56,547 bases of DNA. It comes from Intoshia linei. Taxonomy: Eukaryota > Orthonectida > Rhopaluridae. The notes below the pieces were generated by a model. It saw only the letters and a program-made list of their open reading frames with translations. It had not been told where the DNA came from and searched no databases. How positions within the stretch are numbered: position 1 is the first letter of the stretch; each line of letters opens with the position of its first letter. The DNA lies in assembly GCA_001642005.1 (NCBI GenBank), contig LWCA01000085.1, positions 1 to 56,547 of the forward strand, given 5' to 3'. Shown here one piece after another: positions 1 to 50,288 of the stretch. The translations under genes and the position numbers were made by a program.

Positions 1-1430
1 TGTTTATGGAATTAATGACAAAACTACACAGCAAAGTTTGGAAGATTATTTTAATCCGTATGGTAATTTAAAGAGCATTGATATTATTAAAGACAAAGCT
101 GGTGCGTTGAGAGGTTTTGCTTTTGTGGAATACGACGATTCCGATCCTGTAGATAAACTTACAAGTTGCTTTTTAAATTATATTTATTAATGTATTATAG
201 GAATGAAGCATCATACAGTTAATGGTCAGGATCTTCAAGTTAAAAAAGTTTTTCACAAAGAGCAGCAGCAGGGAGGTACTAGTATACTTTATTTTGATAT
301 TTTAATTATATTTTTTAGTAATATTGGGTGATAGCACTCTTTATTCTAGAGGGGCGCCACGAAACATGTATAATCAATATCGACTTGATGGTAGACAGGA
401 TTATAATGATGTTTATCGTCAAGATACATACGCTGCAAGGGGTTTTATATATTTTTTTAATTTTTTATTTATTTGATTGGATTAGGTTTAATTTTAATTA
501 TATATTTTAGGAATTCCGGATTGTAGAACTTCTTATTCTAGAGGGGCGCCACGAATCATTTATAATCAATATCGACCTAATGGTAGACGGGATTATAATG
601 ATTTTTATCGTCAAGATCCATACGCTGCAAGGGGTTTTATATATTTTTTTAATTTTTTATTTATTTGATTGGATTAGGTTTAATTTTAATTATATATTTT
701 AGGAATGCGGGGTGATAGAACTATTTATTATAGAGGGGCGCCACGAAACAGGTATAATGAATACCGACTTGATGGTAGACAGGATTATAATGATACTTAT
801 TGTCAAGATCCATACCTTTCAAGAGGTTTCATTAATTGTTTTAATTTTATATTTATTTGATTAGATAAAGTTGTATTTTAATTATATATTTTAGGAATTC
901 CGGGTTGTAGAACTCCTTATTCTAGAGGGGCGCCACGAAACATTTATAATCAATATCGACTTGATGGTAGACAGGATTATAATGATTTATATCGTCAAGA
1001 TGCATACGCTGCAAGGGGTATCATATATTGTTTTAATTTTTTATTTATTTGATTAGATAAGGTTTTATTTTAATTATATATTTTAGGAATTCCGGATTGT
1101 AGAACTTCTTATTCTAGAGGGGCGCCACGAAACATTTATAATCAATATCGACGTAATGGTAGACGGGATTATAATGATTCTTATCGTCAAGATCTATACG
1201 CTGCAAGAGGTTTTATTTATTATATTTATTTTTTAATTATTTGATTAGGTTTTCATCAAGATAATTATTCAGGATATAATAATAATACTGGTTGTACTTC
1301 TAGAACAGGTTAAGAAAATTTTTTTGATGGTCTATTTATTTTTTTAGATCAATATAGATATGCTCAAAGATACGATAAACCTACTCCAAATTATTGTCCT
1401 TATGAATATAATTATGATGCTGGCTATTAG
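1..1430 (+). CDS. hnRNP A/B-type RNA-binding protein, 3' part
   Basis: The gene enters from the left edge. Exons: <1-164, 201-275, 319-441, 511-633, 703-825, 895-1017, 1087-1209, 1249-1308, 1348-1430 (stop TAG 1428-1430). Exons 1-2 code the second RRM of an hnRNP A/B protein: the RNP1-like segment reads RGFAFVEY and the end reads KHHTVNGQDLQVKK, as in hnRNP A1/Hrb87F RRM2. The family packages nascent pre-mRNA and regulates splicing. After RRM2 comes a Tyr/Arg/Gln/Asn-rich, prion-like tail made of five 41-residue repeats plus a 47-residue end. Introns are 36-69 nt, all GT-AG, and all tail exons are phase 1-1. The first RRM and the start lie outside the window. The RRM2 call is strong; the exact orthologue within the A/B group is not settled. 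Confidence 0.87.
319..1209 (+). repeat. Five-copy tandem exon-intron array, 192-bp unit
   Basis: Copies start at 319, 511, 703, 895 and 1087, exactly 192 bp apart. Each unit is a 123-nt exon (41 codons, phase 1 at both ends) followed by an intron; the four introns between copies are each exactly 69 nt and nearly identical. The coded core is SRGAPRNxYNQYRxxGRxDY followed by a QDxYAARG end. Copy 3 (703-825) is the most diverged, ending QDPYLSRG. Skipping any number of copies keeps the frame. Confidence 0.95.
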
Positions 1431-16100: not shown

Positions 16101-19100
16101 TATTAATATTAATATTTAAATATTAATTAATCGTTTAACCACAAAATAAATTTTTAAAATTTTTTAAGGAATGTAAAAATTATAATTCATATTTACATAT
16201 TATCTTATTTTTAAGTGGAAATGTTTTTCAGTCTTGTTCAGTTTTATCAAAAAACAGAAAATTTTTAATTATATACAAAAGGGGAGACCTTACATTATTT
16301 TTAACTATAATTTAACAAGATATAAATTATTAATATCTAAAAAGCAATGTCAAGGTCCACGTTAAATTTTAATTACAAAAAATGTCCTTATTTATTAAAA
16401 ATTTTGATTTTTTAAAAAGATTATTCTACAAGTGGGCAATAAAAAATTATATCACCATAAAAATACAAAAAGTGGGCGATGCATGAAAAAAGGTTTAGAA
16501 GCCCTGATGTAGATCAAAGATCTCCAACCTTTTAAATCGTGGGACACTTTTTTATATCAAAAAATTCTACGGGTCCATTTTTGAAAATGTAGAAATTGTT
16601 TAAAATTTATTTATATACATAAATATTACCAATACACAAATTACTTTATTATGATAATTTATATATTTATTCAAAGGGTCACCAAAATTATTTTGTGGGC
16701 CACATGTTGTCAATCTTGGTGTAGATTTATGATATATACATTTTCCGTATACAAAAATCGCATAAAATTACACTAAAATCCATAAACATCATTGGCATTG
16801 TTAATAACTAAAATTTACCTGGTTGGATATTTTGATAGTTGATATTGACTTCAGGGTATTGATTGAATTAAGTAATAACAAAACACCTCTACCAGTTAGA
16901 AGATTTGAATCAACATTCAAGTGCTCTAGTTTTACACATTCTATGATGCTGCAAAGTCTCTATAAGAAAATAATAAGTAATGTAACATAACAAGGGTGGC
17001 CAAGTGGTCATCTAAAAAAAGTTAAATACACTGTTTATATCTTCAAAAACAAGAGATGCACTACATATATATTTTTTATCGCCGTTTATCGGATATTCAC
17101 AATCAAAAAAAATTTATCAAAAACTTTTTGATGAGTTAAAAAAAATTACAAAATGTAATGACTCATTATAATTTATATATAATTAATTTATGTAATAATT
17201 TATCACATTGAAAATGACAAAATATGTTTTTATAATGTTATTTTTTCTGGAATTTATGACAATTTTTATGATTGGACTGTTTTTACTTTATTTTTAATAT
17301 TATACACACATTCTGTCTAATAAAATTAAAAAGTTTTAACTTTATTTTTAATATTATACACACATTCTGTCTAATAAATTAAAAAAATGGGATAATAATT
17401 GTTTATAAAATTCTTTACGCAAATTTTAACAAAACAAAATTAAGATGATAATAATTCACTTTAAAGTAGAAAGTAATGTGATATGACGGTTCCACCTTAA
17501 AAAAATTTGGGAACCACTTTTTAAAACATTGATAATAGTAAATAGTAGGATTTTTAAGTTAGATTTTCAACGTGAATTTATTTTTTTGGTAGAATAAAAA
17601 TTGCCTTCAGCAGAGCTAGGTGATGTTTGTACGTAGTACATTTCTTCTATATATTACCGAAAACAGTACAAATCTATTAAAAGAGACGCAGTTTGGCCTT
17701 TAATATAATATCATATAATTCAGGTATATATACATTTTTATTAGAACCTAGTAATTTTAAATACCTTAGCTAATGTATCAGTCAAACAACAATTGGATAA
17801 ATCTAACTGTTTTACAGATTTGTTTGAGCAGATTGCATCAACAAGTTGTTCAAATTCAAAATGGGTGAAATTCTAAAATAAATGATAAACTATAATATAA
17901 TCTCATAAAAAAAATACAATATTATTAGCATTTATATTTGAAATTTCATTGCCACTGCACAGTTTTTCTAAAGTCTCGTCAAGATTAAAAGGATTCATTT
18001 CATTTAATTGGGATGGTTTGAGTTCTGTTGATTTTACAACACCTACAAACATTATTAATACATAAATATTTATATGAGTTTTTTCCAAATGAAAAAACTA
18101 ACTTCAATTTTTTTTTACTCATTTTGAACTGACTTGGGTAATCAATGAATACTATTCATTTTCAAGTTACATTTTGAGAAAATTAGTGGGATAAAGGTAT
18201 ATCAAGGACATTTAAAAAAATCATTATTTACAGTAATGATTTGTGATGTTGATGAGTAATCAATTTTATAGTTCTTTGATGATTATAATCAATTATAATT
18301 TGTAATTCTATTATAATTAATTAGTTTATAATTCCATACAAAGAAATTTTACTACTACGGTGTTTACTCGTTTATCGCATAAACCAGTCATTCTCAAAGA
18401 GGTCCACAGGAGTTTTTGGGGGTCCATGGAAAATTTTAGAAAATTAAGAATTACAACAATAAAATAATTTTATATAAAATTTACTTGATAAAGGGGTTTC
18501 ATCGCACATAGCAGAAATTTCTGTTGTTTTTAGATAATACTGTTCTTGTGTTAAAAGTTCTGGGCAGTTAAGTATATCTAAAATTAATAGAAAAATAGAA
18601 AATTAAATACTAGCAAGTTCTAATATATCTTTTTCTGTGGCATGATTAAGAGCGTTATTCCATTCGCTATTAGTTTCTACAATGTTTCGATCCAATTTTT
18701 TTTCTTTCGAGTAAAAATTTTGTTCTAAATAATTTACATAATTAACGATCCATTCACAATTTTTTGAAAATTATCTATCAAATAATTAATTCTCTGGTGT
18801 GAACACCATAGAATATTTTTAATTTTTTTGTAATATGGTTTGTAAGTAAAAAATTAATCTCAATATTTCAGTTTTAACTTGGGTCTGTAATGGATGAATT
18901 TTTATGAAACAATATTAATAATTCAAAGTTAATTCTTTAGTTTTAACTTGAGTATATAGGCATCATTATTCAATTTATAATATAATCAGCTGTAAAAAAA
19001 TAAAAAAATTTTCTGATGAACAAACAATGAATAAATCGATTGTAAACGTAAATAATTTATACTAAAAAACACAATTCAATTAATTTTTTTAATTTGATTA

Positions 19101-21555: not shown

Positions 21556-22857
21556 ATGATTTTTTGGATATATTTAATTGGATTATGTACAACTCTTTCA
21601 AGTTTAAAATCAGAATTAAGCGTCGAAAATGCAAATTTGTATCCTGAAACGTTATTGATATACGAAAAGGAAACAATATTTGAAACTCACATTAATTTTC
21701 TCAGAATACTGGAGAAAAACAGCAATGTCAAATATTCAAAGCCTATCGCTAGTTTAAATATAAAAAAGTATGGCGAGTATATATACGATAATATTGTAAT
21801 AATGATTTCAAAATCGCGTACAATCGGAGGACTAGCAATTGATGCTTTAACTGATTACGTCAATGAAGGAAAAAATTTGATAATTATATTGGAAAGAGAC
21901 AATTCAGAAGTAATTAAAAAACTAGTACAAAAATTTGGTTTCAAAGTAGCTACAAATGGAATTTCCAGCTTTGCAGATAATTTTAATAACAATGGAGGTA
22001 AAAATTACAAGATTGTTAAAGTTGCAGCGACAAATTTGGCTAGACTTTCTTCTGTTTATGATAATATGAATATAAAAGATAAGAATATTATGTACGATGG
22101 TTGTGTTATCAAATGTCACGGTAATGATGATTTGATTTTTCCACTATTGAATGCACCGTATACTTCATATGTAAACCAAAAAGAAGGTCTTTCATCAAAC
22201 TACCCGCGGTCGATTGGTACATCGTCACTTATCGCAGCTTTACAAACCAGAAATAATGCTAGAGTAACTTTAATTGGTTCAAGTAACATGTTGAGTGATA
22301 AATTTAATATTTTGTCTCAACAAACAAATTTAAATGTTGCAAGAAATGTCATTTCTTGGGGTTTTAAACAAAAAGGTGTATTACAATTGGTCAATCCAAC
22401 ACATTACATTCAATCTAAAGACAAATCTCATCCTCAGTATACTATTTCTCAACCGATTTACTATTCTATTGATGCTTATCAATTTAATATTGAAAAGTCA
22501 CCAAAATGGGAACCTTTTATTACTAATCAGTTTCAACTGGAATTTATTAGAATCGATCCTTTCTATAGATTAAACCTTAATAGTTCTCAAACACATATTG
22601 GACGATATGAAGCGTCATTTCAACTTCCAGATGTTTTTGGTATTTTTAAATTTTCTGTTATTCACAATATTCCCGGATACACTTATGTTGATCAAATTGT
22701 TACAACGTCGATTGCTCCTTTACGACACGATCAAGCCGATAGATTTGTAATTGCTGCATATCCGTATTACATGAATGCATTTGTAGTTATGATAATGACT
22801 TGGATTTTAGTTATTGTAATTATGTCTTCTAAAAAGTTGAAAGTTAAAGTTCAATAA
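21556..22857 (+). CDS. DDOST: OST48, oligosaccharyltransferase 48-kDa subunit
   Basis: A single uninterrupted 433-codon ORF; human DDOST is 456 aa. It begins with a signal peptide (MIFWIYLIGLCTTLSSLKS). The luminal region has the OST48 pattern: ISKSRTIGGLAIDALTDYVN, a Pro-Leu-Leu-rich centre, VSWGFKQ-type NVISWGFKQKGVL, and the late GIFKFSVIHNIPGYTYVDQI. A membrane segment at ~406-425 (AFVVMIMTWILVIVIM) is followed by the short Lys-rich tail KKLKVKVQ. OST48 is a non-catalytic subunit that holds the oligosaccharyltransferase complex together in the ER membrane, where N-glycans are moved to Asn-X-Ser/Thr. It is the only clearly intronless gene here. The start is the first ATG, directly at the signal peptide. 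Confidence 0.97.
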   Translation: MIFWIYLIGLCTTLSSLKSELSVENANLYPETLLIYEKETIFETHINFLRILEKNSNVKYSKPIASLNIKKYGEYIYDNIVIMISKSRTIGGLAIDALTDYVNEGKNLIIILERDNSEVIKKLVQKFGFKVATNGISSFADNFNNNGGKNYKIVKVAATNLARLSSVYDNMNIKDKNIMYDGCVIKCHGNDDLIFPLLNAPYTSYVNQKEGLSSNYPRSIGTSSLIAALQTRNNARVTLIGSSNMLSDKFNILSQQTNLNVARNVISWGFKQKGVLQLVNPTHYIQSKDKSHPQYTISQPIYYSIDAYQFNIEKSPKWEPFITNQFQLEFIRIDPFYRLNLNSSQTHIGRYEASFQLPDVFGIFKFSVIHNIPGYTYVDQIVTTSIAPLRHDQADRFVIAAYPYYMNAFVVMIMTWILVIVIMSSKKLKVKVQ

Positions 22858-36283: not shown

Positions 36284-39200
36284 ATGAATTCTCAGAACCC
36301 ATCTCCAATAAAACCTGTTAATTTGAATAATAATGAGGAATCATACAAATTGCTATACAACTCATTTTTAAAAAAAGATTCTCTGCACATATTTTGTCAA
36401 TATTTTCCTTCATTATGTGAAAAAGCTGAAAAATATATAAAATTACATAGTGACATTATCAAATTTAATACAAATAGCGTACATTCCAAAACAGGTATTT
36501 TAATAACTATGGAAGAAGTTTTAACACAAGACATACACAAAATATTATGTAAATTGGAAATACCAATGTTATCGAATAATGCAATGTTAATATCTCTGTG
36601 TTTAGAAAGTTTTCGCAATGATTTTAAAAAAATGAAAAGTACAGTCAAATGTGACCAAGATTCTACCAACATAACAGCGCCATTCTCAAAACTCAACATA
36701 AACAAAAAGACACGTTCATATAGTCTGTTTGTCACTTCAGACAACTCACATCGACCTTGGTTTAGATCAAATTCTTATACTTCCGGTGTAAATATGGAAA
36801 AAAAACGAAAAAAGAAAAACAATATACTATTAATGAGTAATTTACCAATTGGAAATTCAAATCCAAGTTTAGTGTCAGATTTATTTGATCCTGACCGATA
36901 TAAAAAGTTTATAATTAGATCCAAACACAAAAGAGATTCCTCGCTGAGCACTATTCATCGAGGGTTAAATATGACATCGCGAACTAATTCACCTGACCCA
37001 AGAACGTTTATACCGTCAAAAATGGACAGCGACTTTTCTTTGAACAGCAGTCTAAGCCAAGAACACGAATTTTTGAAAAGAACTACGACTTTTCGAAACT
37101 CTACAACTGGTCACAAGAGTTGGTTATTGAATATGTTCAACACTAGAATCTCTAATCACGGCAGTTGTGAAAGTTTACAACCGGTCAATCAAAAGGTAAA
37201 TTCTAGTATGGATAGTAACCAAGACAACATTAAATTACTTGATGATTATGCGGTTGAAGCAGCTACAGATGATTATTTGTCTCAAATTAAAAATCTAAAT
37301 ATGACTTTCCGTCAAAAATTTCCTACTGCAATTTCCAAGATGGAAAAAAGCATTGAAGATTTTATTAAAGAACCAGGTTCCTGGAATATTTTAAGCGACC
37401 CAAGTTCTAGTTTTATATTAACCCAGTTAAGAAATATTGCAGCATCAATTCAGTTGGAATCTAAAGAAAATAAATTGTCATACCATCATTTTTTTGAAGC
37501 GATAAGAGAAATCAAAGAAATTGTTTCCAATATAGTTAAATCGCAAAATACTAATCTTGCTTCCTGTCATGAAATTATTAAAAAGGCGAATGACTTGTTA
37601 TTTGTATTTTCAAAACCGTCGCGACTTTTACAGTGTTTAGAATTTGATCCTTTTGATTTTGTTTCGTCTGTGAATATGGCTGATGAAGAAGCAAAATTAC
37701 GACTTTCTATGAACGGTGAATCTTTTTCCAAAATTCCATCTGTGATAATTGATAAATTGGGAATGATGAACAAAAACGAAAGTACCATAAATATTGATAA
37801 GTCAGTTAAAAACGTTAAATTGACCAAGCGATTTAACAGAGAACGTAATATTGAACAATACGAATTTATCAAAATTATAAGCAATGGTGCGTACGGAAGT
37901 GTATCATTGGTAAGGTCGACTAGAAATAACGAATACTATGCTCTGAAACGTATTTCAAAACAAAGTATAGCGTTTAATAATCAAATGGAACAAGTTATTT
38001 CCGAACGCGACATTATGCACATTGCTAGACACCCCTGTGTTGTTCATCTTATTTGCTCATTTGAAACACCTAATGCTCTTAATTTGGTCATGGAGTATAT
38101 ACAAGGTGGCGATTGTCGTACATTTTTAGAGCGTATTGGTGTTTTTCCTGTTGAATACGCTCGCCAATACGTATCAGAAGTTGTGTTGGCTTTAGAATAT
38201 ATTCATTCTCTCGGAATCGTGCATAAGGTATCAATATTATTCATATTAATATAAAATTTTCCATCGTAATACAGAAATACACTATAATATATATTCAGTA
38301 CCAATTAAATAAATACTTAAAAATACCAATTATGTATCAATAATTATAGGAAATTTTCACTTTATAAACATCTCAGGCGAATTTTACTAATATTGCAAAG
38401 GATTGTAATAAAAATGATAATAACAAAGTTGTATTACTTTTAGTAGTCGTAGTTTTTATTTAAATTTTATACTAAATGTTTTAAAAATGAAAATTTGAGA
38501 TTTCAAAATTGCTTAGCGATGAAAAAAATTTTGAAGGAATGAATTATGTACATTTTCACTCATATTTATTTATTGGAAATGAGTAGACGTTCAATGCACA
38601 TTTTTTTGAAATTGTAGGATCAATATTTACAAAATTATAATAATCAATAAATTTATATGTATGTAATCTATGTAATAGATGTATATAATTTTTATGGACC
38701 CTGTTGAAAATGTTTGTCCTAAAGAATAATATCATTGTGTAATTGAATCAGTTTTTTGTATACAATTTAAATTTAGTTTTTAAAAAATATAATATTTTCT
38801 CGCGGGTTTAACCTGTTTATTTTTAGTGTAAATGAATCTATGTAAAATAATTTATTTACATTAATTTTAGGATATGAAACCAGAAAATTTATTGATAACA
38901 CGAACGGGGCATATAAAATTGACAGATTTTGGATTGTCAAAAATAGGTGCTATTTTTAAAATGACATGCTATGAATTGGAAACTGATCCTTTCAATGACG
39001 GTAAAATAATTGGAACACCAGAATATATTGCACCAGAAGTTATATTGACTACTGGTTATGGGCCACCTGTTGATTGGTGGGCACTTGGAGTTATATTACA
39101 TGAATTTGTGATAGGTGAAACACCGTTTCACGCTAATTCTCCAAAAAACGTATTTTTAAATATTTTATATAAAGATTTATCACTAATTGGAATTAAAAGT

Positions 39201-40590
39201 ACGAGTTTAAGTGACCCAGAGGCACAAGAAAATGATGAAATTCCCAAGTGTAACATTTGGGAGGATATTTCTAATGATTGTGTATTATTGATTAAAGAGT
39301 TGTTGATAAGAAACCCTTTGTATCGCTTGGGAGGCATTCGAGACGACGATTTTAACCGCGAACTAGTAGCCAGTGCTTCTAATAGTACCAGTGGTTTTCT
39401 TCGAAAAACAATTAAAAACCATGATTTTTTCAAATCGGTTATTTGGAAAAATGTTATTGAAAAAGAGGCTCTATTTATTCCTAAAATTGATTGTGTTTCT
39501 GATACTAGTTATTTTGAAGACAGAAATGAAAGATATAATCATGGCGAATTTGACAGTGAAACAGATGATAATGCAGATATATTGTCCAGTAGTTTTACCT
39601 GTGTAGCCGAAAAAGACGATAATTCTAATAAGTCAAAAACAAAAATTACAAACCAATATGTTCCTATTCTATCTACTCTTGATAAATACAGAAGTGGATA
39701 TAATCTTAGTGCATCTTTTGATGAAAAAACTAATGAAAAATATTTACCATCTCCAGAATCTGTTGGGTCAATGAATTTATCATCTAGTGAGATAAAATGG
39801 TAATTTTTTTTTTTTCCGTATTACTTTTTTTAGTAAAAATGTAACCAAATTCTCTAATGATACGGCATTCCGTACATATTTGAATAAAAATGTTGGTAAC
39901 ATTAGCAGAAAACCGCAGATCAAGCGCAACAAAAGCGTCATTACTAAAACCCCTCTTCTCGACCAATTAAAACAAAGTTTATTATATGTTTATTAATATT
40001 TATATAATTATTTTAGCACTAAACAAACAGTATAGTGACTCAGGAAACAGCTCTAGAGACGAAACGCCTCCTCCATTGGTTATTAAAACTCCTTTTACTA
40101 ATTCATTAAGTAAATCAAAAAGTTATCACTTTAAAAGTCAATCAGCCCGCCCTACATCAGCTATAGATGTTCATCGCAATGCCGTACCTTTGGCAAATTT
40201 TTTTAAAAAGAACAAAATACAATTTATTACCAAAACTTTAAAACTTGTATCGAAAAATAATTATAGTTATGGATTTACTATGAATGGAATTGCAGAATCA
40301 CACGAAAATATTCCAAAATTAATTCACATTAAAAAAAGGTTCAACAAGAATAATGAAAATTCAAAACATATAATCCGACACCATGTCACCGTATATTCAA
40401 TATTTTCATTTGTAAATTTTTTTAGTCTGTTGACGCAAGTGGGCCCGCTTACAAGGCAGGTTTGAGGAAAGGATTCATCATTAGTCACATTGATAATTTT
40501 CCGCTAGATGGTATAAATCATTTTGACGCAGTTCTTCGACTTTTACGGAAAAAGACTATTAAACTTACAGTGATTTGTCCAAATTTTTGA
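36284..40590 (+). CDS. MAST: MAST-family Ser/Thr kinase with PDZ domain
   Basis: Exons: 36284-38227, 38871-39799, 39834-39976, 40017-40384, 40426-40590; 1182 aa, phases consistent. Residues ~1-310 are Ser/Asn-rich with basic patches (KKRKKKNN). ~318-500 fit the helical MAST pre-kinase domain (DYLSQIKNLNMTFRQKFP, SWNILSDPSSSF). The AGC-type kinase spans ~523-840: ISNGAYGSV loop, YYALKRISK lysine, catalytic loop GIVHK|DMKPENLL, LTDFGLSK, GTPEYIAPEV, DWWALGVILHEF. The C-terminal PDZ begins near NYSYGFTMNGI and continues SGPAYKAGLRKGFIISHID. MAST kinases bind microtubules and PTEN-type partners through the PDZ. The HRD arginine is Lys here. Intron 1 splits that motif between K and D and carries a fragment of the composite element. 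The gene ends 122 bp from the convergent Src gene. Confidence 0.96.
38575..38640 (+). repeat. 5' fragment of the composite element in MAST intron 1
   Basis: TTATTGGAAATGAGTAGACG, TTGAAATTGTAGGATCAATA: the same 5' block as at 53220 (reversed) and 56450. Confidence 0.7.
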
Positions 40591-40712: not shown

Positions 40713-43700
40713 CTAAATGCTTTCTCGATAATTTGCTTCGGTACAAATAAAGTAGTCATCTAGAAAAGAGTGCAAAAAAGAAAAAGTTGGTCGCACTTCT
40801 GCATTTCTATCCCAGGTTTTAATGACAATTTCGTATAATGATTCTGGGAATTCAGTTTCGTCGGAAGAGGGGTTTGGCATACGATAACCGTTTTCAATCT
40901 TTGCCAAAGTTTCGGCGCCTGACATACCTGGGTATGGTATTCTTCCAAATGTCATGATTTCATATATCAGTATTCCGAAAGACCACACGTCAGATTTTAC
41001 ACTAAAACGACGTTCGAGTGCTGCTTCCGGAGCCGTCCATTTGATTGGAAATTTTGTTGTCTCATTTGCAATGTAAACGTCGTCATCTGTTTGACCATTT
41101 TCTAAAACTTTGTTCATCAATCTGGCTAGACCAAAATCTGCCACTTTAGCAACCAAATTATCACCTATTAAAATATTTGCTGCTCGCAAATCACGATGAA
41201 CATAATTTCTTTCCTCAAGATAGGACATTCCATTTGCAACCTGGGCCGCAATATCAATCATTTGAGTTAGACTTAAATTTCGCCCTCGCTTTTCATCTCG
41301 TAAATAGGCCAATAAAGAACCATGTGGCATAAGTTCTTGTATTATGTAGAGTGGTTCAACAATACTACAAACTCCCATTAATTGCACTAAATTTCTATGT
41401 CTTAGTTTATGCATTATTGCTGCTTCGTGCAAAAACGCCTGAGATGTCATTGAACCACCCTGTTTCATCATTTTCACGGCTACTTTAACTGAATCGCGCC
41501 AAAATCCTAATATAAATGTTTTTAAAATAAATAAAGTTGAAACCTGACCACACTTCACCAAAATTTCCTTCGCCAAGTTTAGTTTGTAATGTTATCAGTT
41601 TTCTGTCTACTTCAATATCTTTAAAAGGCAATGGATCGGGGCTCTGAGTACAGCATATGGTTAATCGAGAGCAGAGACCATCACTGTTATCTAAAATAAT
41701 ACATTATAAACGCTGGTCGATAATTTACTAGAATAGTATTTTATGAGATGATTTAATGATGGGAAGGTTTTTCTAGAACTTATGTAACATCCACCATTTT
41801 CCATACGCCGGATACGATAATGCCGTGTGCTTATTCTAGTTTCATCCTCGTCTAATACACTTAAAACCCAACTTCGATTGTCAGAACTGAGGCGCACTAG
41901 GAATGTGCCTCTGGAGCAGGTTGGTTGTAATAAAAATTTATCAGCTTCACGGCGATCTACGTTAAACCACCATTCTTGAGATTCCGGATTATCGTCATGT
42001 TTTTTTACGTAGTTTGAAGGAATGAACCCACATAGTGAATTTAATGAATTTAAACGTCTAGCATACCACCAATCACAGTTTTCTCTAAAAATATAAATAT
42101 ACTGTGATTTTAATAGTTACGTGTCGCCGACAATTTCCATTATATCCCCTTTTCTAAAAGACAAATCTTCGTCGTGTCGTGCTTGATAATCGTATAGAGC
42201 TCGTACAATTATTACATCTATAAAGTAAATTATTTATATCAATTTAATTCAGTTATTGAAGTCGTTCAAATTTTTGTATTTTAAGGGTTTTCAATTATGA
42301 AAACAATTTTCATTCAAACAAGTTAAAAAAATGGCTAGGTTAAATAGGTATCAAATCTGCAAAGGTCTTACCACCACGTTCTGGCATTAGTACCGGCATT
42401 TTTAGTTTTATTACTGGGAAAATTAAAAAATTAATCTATTTTTGTAAATACATTATTGCAGAGTTACCAGATGTTGGTAATTTATCCCAAAGTCAAGGAA
42501 TATAAAAAATACACTAAAAGTTTTTTTCTAATTAGTATAAACTTATAAATTAGACATTCTATTGTATGGTTCGTAAGTAATGTAAACGTAAGTTTGGTTC
42601 AAAAAAAAATTACTAAAACCCAAAATTAAACTAAAATATTAATGAAAGTTTTACACATTCTACGACTTATCCATTTTTCGGATATAAGAGACGTCCGGTT
42701 ATAAGGGACAAATTGCTTGGTCCCGATGCGTCTCTTATAAGCGGATTCCACTGTATTATATTATTTTAAAAATATTAATTTTTGATAAAATCGGATTTTT
42801 CATAAAAATATGGTAAAAGTGGTTTTTTCTCATAACATATTACTAAATTGCATAAAATATGCTTAAATTTTATCATTCACCTCCAATCATCTAAAATTTT
42901 CGTATTCACCCCCATGAAAAGCATTGCTGTATTTGATTAAATTTTATTTAGAAAGGTGCGGCATTATTAAATTTTTGTAAGACGTTGTGCTGCCTTCGAA
43001 CAGTAAATGCTTCCCATCTCTTTTCCGATACTTTTTTAAAAAATTCGATTTTACCAAACCTTAATATTAAAAACACTTAATCAAACCATAAAATAAAAAA
43101 CAAAATTTTAACAATCATGAAGGAAAAATTAATTTTTCTGAGTACTTAGTTCTAAACATTAAATATTTCTGAGACACACTTGCATTTTTGGTTTATATTT
43201 TATAAATTAGTCATTTATACATTTAAAACAATTTTGCTGGTACCCGAAAATCCATCACTATTGAATATCTTTCATCACGACCCAATGAAACTTGGTGAGT
43301 TAACTTTGATCTTAATTTGATAGACCGGTACGGACAATGAAAAATGTTTACAGATACGGGCTGGTAAGAAAACGAATAATGTGGGCTCGTGCAGGTTCAA
43401 ATCAGAATTACGTCTAAATGTAAAAACTCCAACTGGCCATAAAAGAGAAAAAAATGACAAAATATTTTAGTTTTATTTTAGTCATATTGCCACTCCTTTT
43501 TTCGCAATATTTTCCCACATGATAAATTACCTTTATTTCCATTATACATGTGGGATTCGTTATTTACTCTATCAAAATCTTGAGCTATATAAGTTGGTTG
43601 ACAAGATTCTTTATGGTTAGAGTTTGCATTAATCATAAAAGAATTTCTTGAATTTATATCGGATCCATAAGAATTTTTGATTCGATTTCTCTTACAAAAT

Positions 43701-48658: not shown

Positions 48659-50288
48659 TTCTGAATATATTACAAATTAAAAATATTTATATACATGTAT
48701 TTCTCGATTGAATAGGTTAATTACAATTGTAATTCAAAATACCGACCAAATGAAAGTCGAGGAAATTTTTTTTCATAATATTAAATAACTTACTTTTCAC
48801 TTAGATATATTTACAATTTCTACATCATAGGTATTATTCAAAAGCTCCAATTCAGGTTTAATAGATTCAAATTTAGAAAATCCGATTAGTAATTCCACAT
48901 CAATATTCAATCATATATTTATTTTTTATTATTTACCCGTTTTGCAGAATATATTACTAAACATTTACGCGGGCCATATAATTTGATCCCTCGGACCACA
49001 TGCTGACCCGGGTCATGTTTTGGACCACCTTGGTGTAAACTATTAGATAAAGTTGTCATTTTTGTACCATTTGAGCTTTTTCTCAGCACGTTACGTAGCA
49101 ATGTATTGTATTTTAATAAATACACATCTTCAATTAAAGTTTAGAATCATCGTAAAAATAAATAATGTACAAAAAGATATACAGTGGAATCCGCTTATAA
49201 GAGACGCATCGGAACCAAGAAATTTGTCCCTTATAACCGGACGTCTCTTATATCCAAAAAATCATAAATAAATAAAATGTTAAGTAATATATATGTCGTA
49301 TAGAATGTGTAAAACTGAAATGTACACATTGTATGGGCAAGTTGTAGAATATGTATATTTCATTTATATTTTAGTTTAATTTAGGGTTTTAGTATATTTT
49401 TTTTAAACCAAAATTTTAAGGGGGGTTTTTAGGAAATTTTTTTTTAACCAAACTTTCAAGGGGGAGGTTTAAGATTCTTTTTTTGATCACAGTTTTACAC
49501 ATTCTATGCAACATATACTTAATTATTTTTTATTACAGCAATAAAACTAAAAAAATCAAATTTTTTTTCTAATTTTAGTGATTTTTTTAACGCCATTTTG
49601 GAGGTTAAACTTTATTATTAAAACAATTAGTCAAAATATTAAGGTTTCAAAAATCATTTTCTACAATAATATAATAATTTATTTTAAAAAAATCTTGAAT
49701 ATCCATTTTAAAAAACAAATTGCCTGTCCACTATAAGCGGATTTTTGTTCCTTATATCCGTCTGTGATTTATATACAAAACAAGTTTTTGATTCCATTCC
49801 CAACTTTTTGTCCCTTATAACCGGTGTCTCTTATAAGCGGATTCCACTGTATAACAAAATACTAAAAGACATTAGCTTTTCATTAATAACAAATATTTTG
49901 ACTTTTAATACAACAAATATATTATAATGTTAAATTAACACATTTAATAAAGTACACAAGGCCTGAAATCGTAGGTTTAATTGTTTATAATGATTGAATC
50001 TAAGAAACAGGAAACAATATAACAATTTGAAAAATGGAAAATAGTAATTTTTATTTTAATAATTAATAACATTACAGTCGCATATTTATATATTTTATAT
50101 CTTTCATATAAATATGTATATTATAATGATATTTATATAATTTTTTATGTTAATATCAAAATTTTCAAAATAAATAAGCTAAAATTTTTACCTAAAACTA
50201 AAACAATCTTTTAGAAAATGAATTATATGCATATGACATAAAAAACAGTTGGAATTTTAATAAACCGTTGCATCCCTTAATAAATAGA
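48659..50288. other. Intergenic between Rho and coiled-coil genes
   Basis: Holds hAT-like debris (48930-49045, ending TTTTGGACCACCTTGGTG) and the 668-bp pogo-type element. No exon visible. Confidence 0.6.
49182..49849. mobile_element. Pogo/Tigger-type element, 668 bp
   Basis: Left end CAGTGGAATCCGCTTATAAG, right end CTTATAAGCGGATTCCACTG, perfect inverted repeats of at least 24 bp with TA on both sides. Sub-terminal TCCCTTATAACCGGACGTCT repeats the theme in both arms. No transposase. Related pieces lie at 42590-42752 and 13360-13620. Confidence 0.92.

Follow-up and report, generated by a model that had tools for sequence, protein, structure and literature searches.

Within the hnRNP family, the best parallels to the locus described here are two alternatively used exons in the low-complexity tail that follows the RRMs. 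Exon 6 of hnRNPDL (57 residues) is described in PMC9842712 as coinciding with the fibril core and as missing from the soluble isoform, and its inclusion decides assembly. Exon 7B of hnRNP A1, according to PMC8498194, adds 52 residues to the Gly-rich domain. More generally, the simulations and experiments cited in PMC11820118 identify aromatic residues, and depending on context also Arg, as the contact points of prion-like tails, while PMC8389229 defines hnRNP A/B proteins by a Gly-rich tail with RGG. The duplication of coding exons side by side affects about 10% of animal genes, according to earlier work cited in PMC9013439.

The array of tail exons found in the orthonectid Intoshia linei shares with hnRNPDL exon 6 and hnRNP A1 exon 7B that it is in-frame, contains Tyr and belongs to the low-complexity tail after the RRM. 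It differs from them, as those reports describe them, in that each of the known systems is one Gly/Tyr-rich exon known to be switched, whereas the array comprises five copies of predicted exons rich in Tyr, Arg and Asp. As in tandem exon duplication (PMC9013439), adjoining and similar coding exons of equal phase lie within one gene; here, there are five copies, the introns look hybrid, the copies have exchanged sequence with one another, and the whole is located in a low-complexity tail. In a limited search of titles and the openings of abstracts in open-licence literature, papers on Intoshia included, no hnRNP exon array of this kind came up. The hybrid-intron observation, the conflict between exon and intron histories, and the excess of amino-acid-changing differences combined with invariant Tyr are new here; what has been found is a neat variant, in several copies, of processes already known and no new system.

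The window, that is, the whole stretch of DNA analysed (56,547 bp), is the entire contig C1064 of a draft assembly (34.65 Mb, 1319 contigs). Its array consists of five exons of 123 nt at 319-1209, one per 192 bp, with four 69-nt introns between them (Table 1). Tandem Repeats Finder describes it with a period of 192, 4.9 copies, 0% indels and a score of 1431, the highest among the 12 rows for the full window, and elsewhere in the window gives no tandem period above 54 bp. Once spliced, the model extends from base 2 to its single stop codon at 1428-1430 and encodes 331 residues in nine exons; all eight introns are GT-AG. With an open frame across nine exons and eight GT-AG introns, the array is far beyond chance. 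The coordinates, exon length, phase and period that a sequence-only reading had given are confirmed. Its unit of 192 bp in all five copies holds for four units, but the fifth exon is followed by an intron of 39 nt (1210-1248), and its term 'near-identical', used for the introns, fits unevenly: intron pairs agree at 59-69 of 69 positions (86-100%) and exon pairs at 100-118 of 123 (81-96%).

Table 1. Positions in the window of the exons and introns in the predicted hnRNP A/B-like gene
Feature	Position	Strand	Basis
Exon with most of RRM2, hnRNP A/B-like; contig starts inside it	2..164	+	phmmer, Pfam RRM_1
Intron A (36 nt, phase 1), matching the C397 and C861 paralogs in position and phase (by eye)	165..200	+	
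Exon in which RRM2 ends and the linker starts	201..275	+	gene model
Upstream intron B, 43 nt; last 20-25 nt resemble 3' ends of the 69-nt introns	276..318	+	
Array exon 1, 123 nt, phase 1-1	319..441	+	
Hybrid-looking intron 1, 69 nt	442..510	+	
Array exon 2	511..633	+	
Hybrid-looking intron 2, same sequence as intron 1	634..702	+	
Array exon 3, most divergent of the five	703..825	+	
Hybrid-looking intron 3	826..894	+	
Array exon 4	895..1017	+	
Hybrid-looking intron 4	1018..1086	+	
Array exon 5	1087..1209	+	
Downstream intron, 39 nt; 34-39 nt align ungapped with 5' part of the 69-nt introns	1210..1248	+	
Exon 8, 60 nt, phase 1-1	1249..1308	+	
Last intron, 39 nt	1309..1347	+	
Last exon and stop codon	1348..1430	+	

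The contig starts in the middle of RRM2 and of a coding exon, 318 bp 5' of the array, and lacks the preceding half of the gene, including RRM1 and the start codon. For the 79 residues encoded 5' of the array, the best PDB chains in phmmer are those of hnRNP A2/B1 and A1 (whole-chain E 1.2e-28, summed over two RRM stretches; RRM2 of the top chain 68.5 bits, RRM1 31.6 bits), and Pfam RRM_1 scores 46.1 bits on these residues against a cut-off of 20.7. The hnRNP label that had been given to the gene thus holds for the RRM, which is a second RRM of the hnRNP A1/A2 type. The tail, said earlier to be rich in Tyr and Arg, indeed contains 41 of each among its 252 residues in the five-copy model, together with 26 Asp, 22 Asn and 21 Gly, and has a net charge of +14; the five units carry 31 of these Tyr and 38 of these Arg. 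No RGG was seen by eye in the translation, and with Gly at only 21 of 252 tail positions the gene lacks the Gly-rich RGG tail of hnRNP A/B; it is hnRNP A/B-like, short of a full member. The 252-residue tail is expected to be disordered.

A search of the assembly with an RRM1 query gave 31 matches and no contig that clearly continues the gene. Two contigs were considered as the 5' half and rejected: C1020, which holds the best RRM1 match, has that one RRM alone listed, and C687 starts a different second RRM (by eye). A protein search with the 331-residue model gave nothing at E <= 0.001 among 5935 candidates; that the gene is unique does not follow from this, since in the PDB the model scores 94.2 bits with hnRNP A2/B1. 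Rfam and ARAGORN found nothing over the window. Among the matches listed for the whole 34.65-Mb assembly in DNA and protein searches (at least five each), these five copies are the only ones, and a Tandem Repeats Finder scan for other exon arrays in 48 loci off the window contig, many of them overlapping (61 loci minus 12 of the window contig and L061, which is also on the window contig), gave no period above 72 bp.

The introns that flank the array are informative about its origin. The 39-nt downstream intron can be aligned, gap-free, to the beginnings of introns 1-4 over 37, 37, 39 and 34 nt, with scores of 49, 49, 43 and 43; a score of 49 was reached by none of 500 shuffles, the best of which scored 48. 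At the other end, the final 20-25 nt of the upstream intron (43 nt) align with the 3' ends of introns 1-4 with scores of 35, 35, 38 and 37, where 38 was reached by 11 of 500 shuffles. As a control, 85 other GT-N37-AG stretches (window, plus strand, beyond position 2000) score 35 at best, so that the upstream scores of introns 1 and 2 only equal the best control, and the matched 20-25 nt are AT-rich. To judge from these alignments, the 69-nt introns look hybrid, with a downstream-like start and, less strongly, an upstream-like end, as would be expected of unequal exchange around one ancestral exon. AGs are present at nt 39-45 in all four internal introns, and they would lie near the expected 3' border of the downstream intron's own sequence. 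The earlier proposal that exon and intron were duplicated as blocks is supported. We propose that one 123-nt phase 1-1 tail exon was multiplied when the introns on either side of it underwent unequal exchange, and that this exchange would have left the hybrid 69-nt introns, as the comparison suggests strongly for their downstream half and less so for the upstream one.

The copies did not remain separate afterwards. When two-state sites with at least two copies per side are counted, the exons group copies 1+3 (4 sites), 2+5 (3) and 3+5 (2), whereas the introns group 1+2 versus 3+4 (5 sites). An identical run of 84 nt within the unit joins copies 1 and 2, with the lowest permutation P of the six pairs (0.0002; the other five 0.16-0.99). 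A single tree cannot account for both the exon and the intron groupings, and such conflicting histories show that the copies have swapped tracts among themselves since the array arose. Of the suggestion that the array reflects recent duplication or homogenisation, the exchange or homogenisation survives, through the conflicting groupings and the 84-nt tract, but 'recent' fails for the array as a whole because the exons differ by up to 19%. It fits introns 1 and 2 best, which are identical at 69/69 positions, though their exons differ at 17/123 sites.

The differences between the exon copies are mostly amino-acid-changing. The five exons are separated by a minimum of 35 changes, of which 31 alter the encoded amino acid although the paths had been selected in favour of silent ones; under neutrality, simulations with six settings predict 7.9-10.4 silent changes where 4 are seen (P(<=4) 0.007-0.063). 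Further, dN exceeds dS in 10/10 exon pairs, which are not independent of one another, and omega is estimated at 1.27-2.50 across four codon models. These values could mean that amino-acid change between copies was actively favoured, a reading that is compatible with the duplication history and that we hold as a tentative, somewhat unlikely one. On the other hand, a codon model with omega set to 1 and kappa to 2 has a likelihood only 1.1 log units lower (-330.42 vs -329.33), which is not significant, and exchange between copies violates the tree model. In copies 1-4, exon positions 1+2 are variable at 22/81 sites against 11/69 for the introns (P 0.12), and position 3 is intron-like (6/41, P 1.0). 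The excess of amino-acid-changing differences is thus suggestive only. The amino acid is invariant among the five copies at 22/41 positions, which include 6/6 Tyr (P 0.017), 5/7 Arg (P 0.27, not significant) and 11/13 of Tyr and Arg taken together (P 0.008), in tests that were picked after data inspection and are weak. Under the duplication history that we prefer, selection may hold the Tyr positions, and perhaps many of the Arg, while the remainder drifts or diversifies.

The frame tolerates the loss of any array exon. All 32 skipping subsets stay in frame through to the same stop, as had been claimed for any subset. Introns are less forgiving: the retention of any of the eight leads to a stop before residue 332, and an early stop would likewise follow if splicing used any of the six AGs examined inside the 69-nt introns, those that end from nt 25 onwards, so exact splicing is needed. 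The 69-nt introns are ordinary for I. linei, the median intron of which is given as 57 bp in PMC6543705. Two paralogs of the gene in the same species are located on contigs C397 and C861 (loci L031, about 1009-2213, and L034, about 980-2215); they are closely alike, with two RRMs and short Tyr-rich tails, in models made by eye with perhaps incomplete 5' ends. They share with the window gene the position (by eye) and phase of the RRM2 intron, and from RRM2 on their introns are of phase 1 throughout (4/4 in each). They differ from it in having no array and in terminating in RHNPYKRY, which the window gene lacks; viewed by eye for an M9 or PY-type nuclear signal of hnRNP A/B proteins, the C-terminal part of its tail reads CPYEYNYDAGY instead. 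From this comparison, the phase symmetry of the exons looks ancestral and not array-specific, and in-frame duplication could have been possible because such genes already had phase-1 introns.

The same properties bear on the idea, raised in the sequence-only reading, of a splicing or copy-number dial, in which the number of array exons varies by transcript or individual in 41-residue steps. It agrees with the 32 in-frame subsets, with the precedent of switchable tail exons in hnRNPDL (exon 6, PMC9842712) and hnRNP A1 (exon 7B, PMC8498194), and with the scarcity of GTA 5' splice sites, found at 2/8 introns of the window gene versus 9/12 in the two paralogs (Fisher P 0.065), a faint hint that its 5' splice sites may be weaker. 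The splice borders are, however, nearly alike in all copies, with no visible mark for separate control, and the intron phase that allows harmless skipping occurs in both array-less paralogs as well. A dial, though compatible with the duplication history, is not supported in the form proposed and is in our opinion unlikely. The probabilities that we assign to these readings overlap, both diversifying selection and a dial being compatible with that history. The splice borders and frame of the five copies are intact, and all five are probably spliced in constitutively.

The contig starts only 318 bp before the array, in a draft assembly of 1319 contigs, and the copy number could be an artefact, the true number being different or alleles having been strung together. 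Each copy has differences of its own, however, and at offsets of one, two, three and four units exact repeats reach at most 88, 30, 65 and 27 nt, so identity does not span whole multi-unit blocks; we regard an artefact as very doubtful. A mutually exclusive cluster, with a single variant unit per mRNA, is highly improbable: the exons adjoin, are similar, have equal phase and length and differ mostly in amino-acid-changing ways, but double inclusion stays in frame in all 32 subsets, so the frame enforces no exclusivity of the kind that a frame break on double inclusion commonly, though not universally, provides, and the introns are near the I. linei median length, with no obvious crowding. The whole is best explained, and in our judgement probably so, by a heritable increase in the length of a sticker-rich tail, with all exon copies usually spliced in.

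Other repeats and genes were observed along the way. A 54-bp tandem repeat with a nearly identical unit is present both in the window (17279-17385) and 3' of the C397 paralog (L031 2465-2654), apparently a dispersed minisatellite, and a similar 40-bp tandem unit is shared by the window (49384-49484) and contig C154 (L035 825-996). Another RRM locus (L007 2608-2819) has tandem repeats of 72 bp and 54 bp, one unit frame being Ser/Arg-rich (by eye). Within the window, an unbroken ORF of 433 residues at 21556-22854 encodes the oligosaccharyltransferase subunit DDOST (OST48), with 30-34% identity to other relatives (119 listed besides itself, of 173). A kinase domain extends across two ORFs at 36284-39800 with DUF1908 upstream, a pairing that we take to be MAST-like, and a domain of the tyrosine-kinase type is located on the minus strand at 40716-41591 (Pfam PK_Tyr_Ser-Thr, 263 bits). 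A COX1 family search of the whole assembly gave no match; the assembly seems to be without the mitochondrial genome, which has been described for I. linei (PMC12249979).

What could the lengthened tail do? By analogy with prion-like tails, the array would multiply contact points, and the hnRNP tails of other animals suggest that added copies most likely raise Tyr and Arg contacts and strengthen self-association in RNP assemblies. The role in condensation is borrowed from other species, and the tail of the window gene has Arg and Asp in place of Gly. A more far-reaching idea is that of a modular 'sticker array', in which Tyr and many Arg are fixed, the spacers are under positive selection, exchange between copies alters their number, and steps of 41 residues set the strength of condensation, through evolution or through splicing; as a whole we think it distinctly unlikely. 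The locus illustrates tail growth by whole exons. In this tiny marine parasite, whose body and genome are strongly reduced, it offers a natural dose series for the number of Tyr/Arg modules that the tail of an hnRNP-like protein can bear. Should the number of copies, or their inclusion, prove variable, the array would test directly whether tail length is an evolvable control of RNP assembly.
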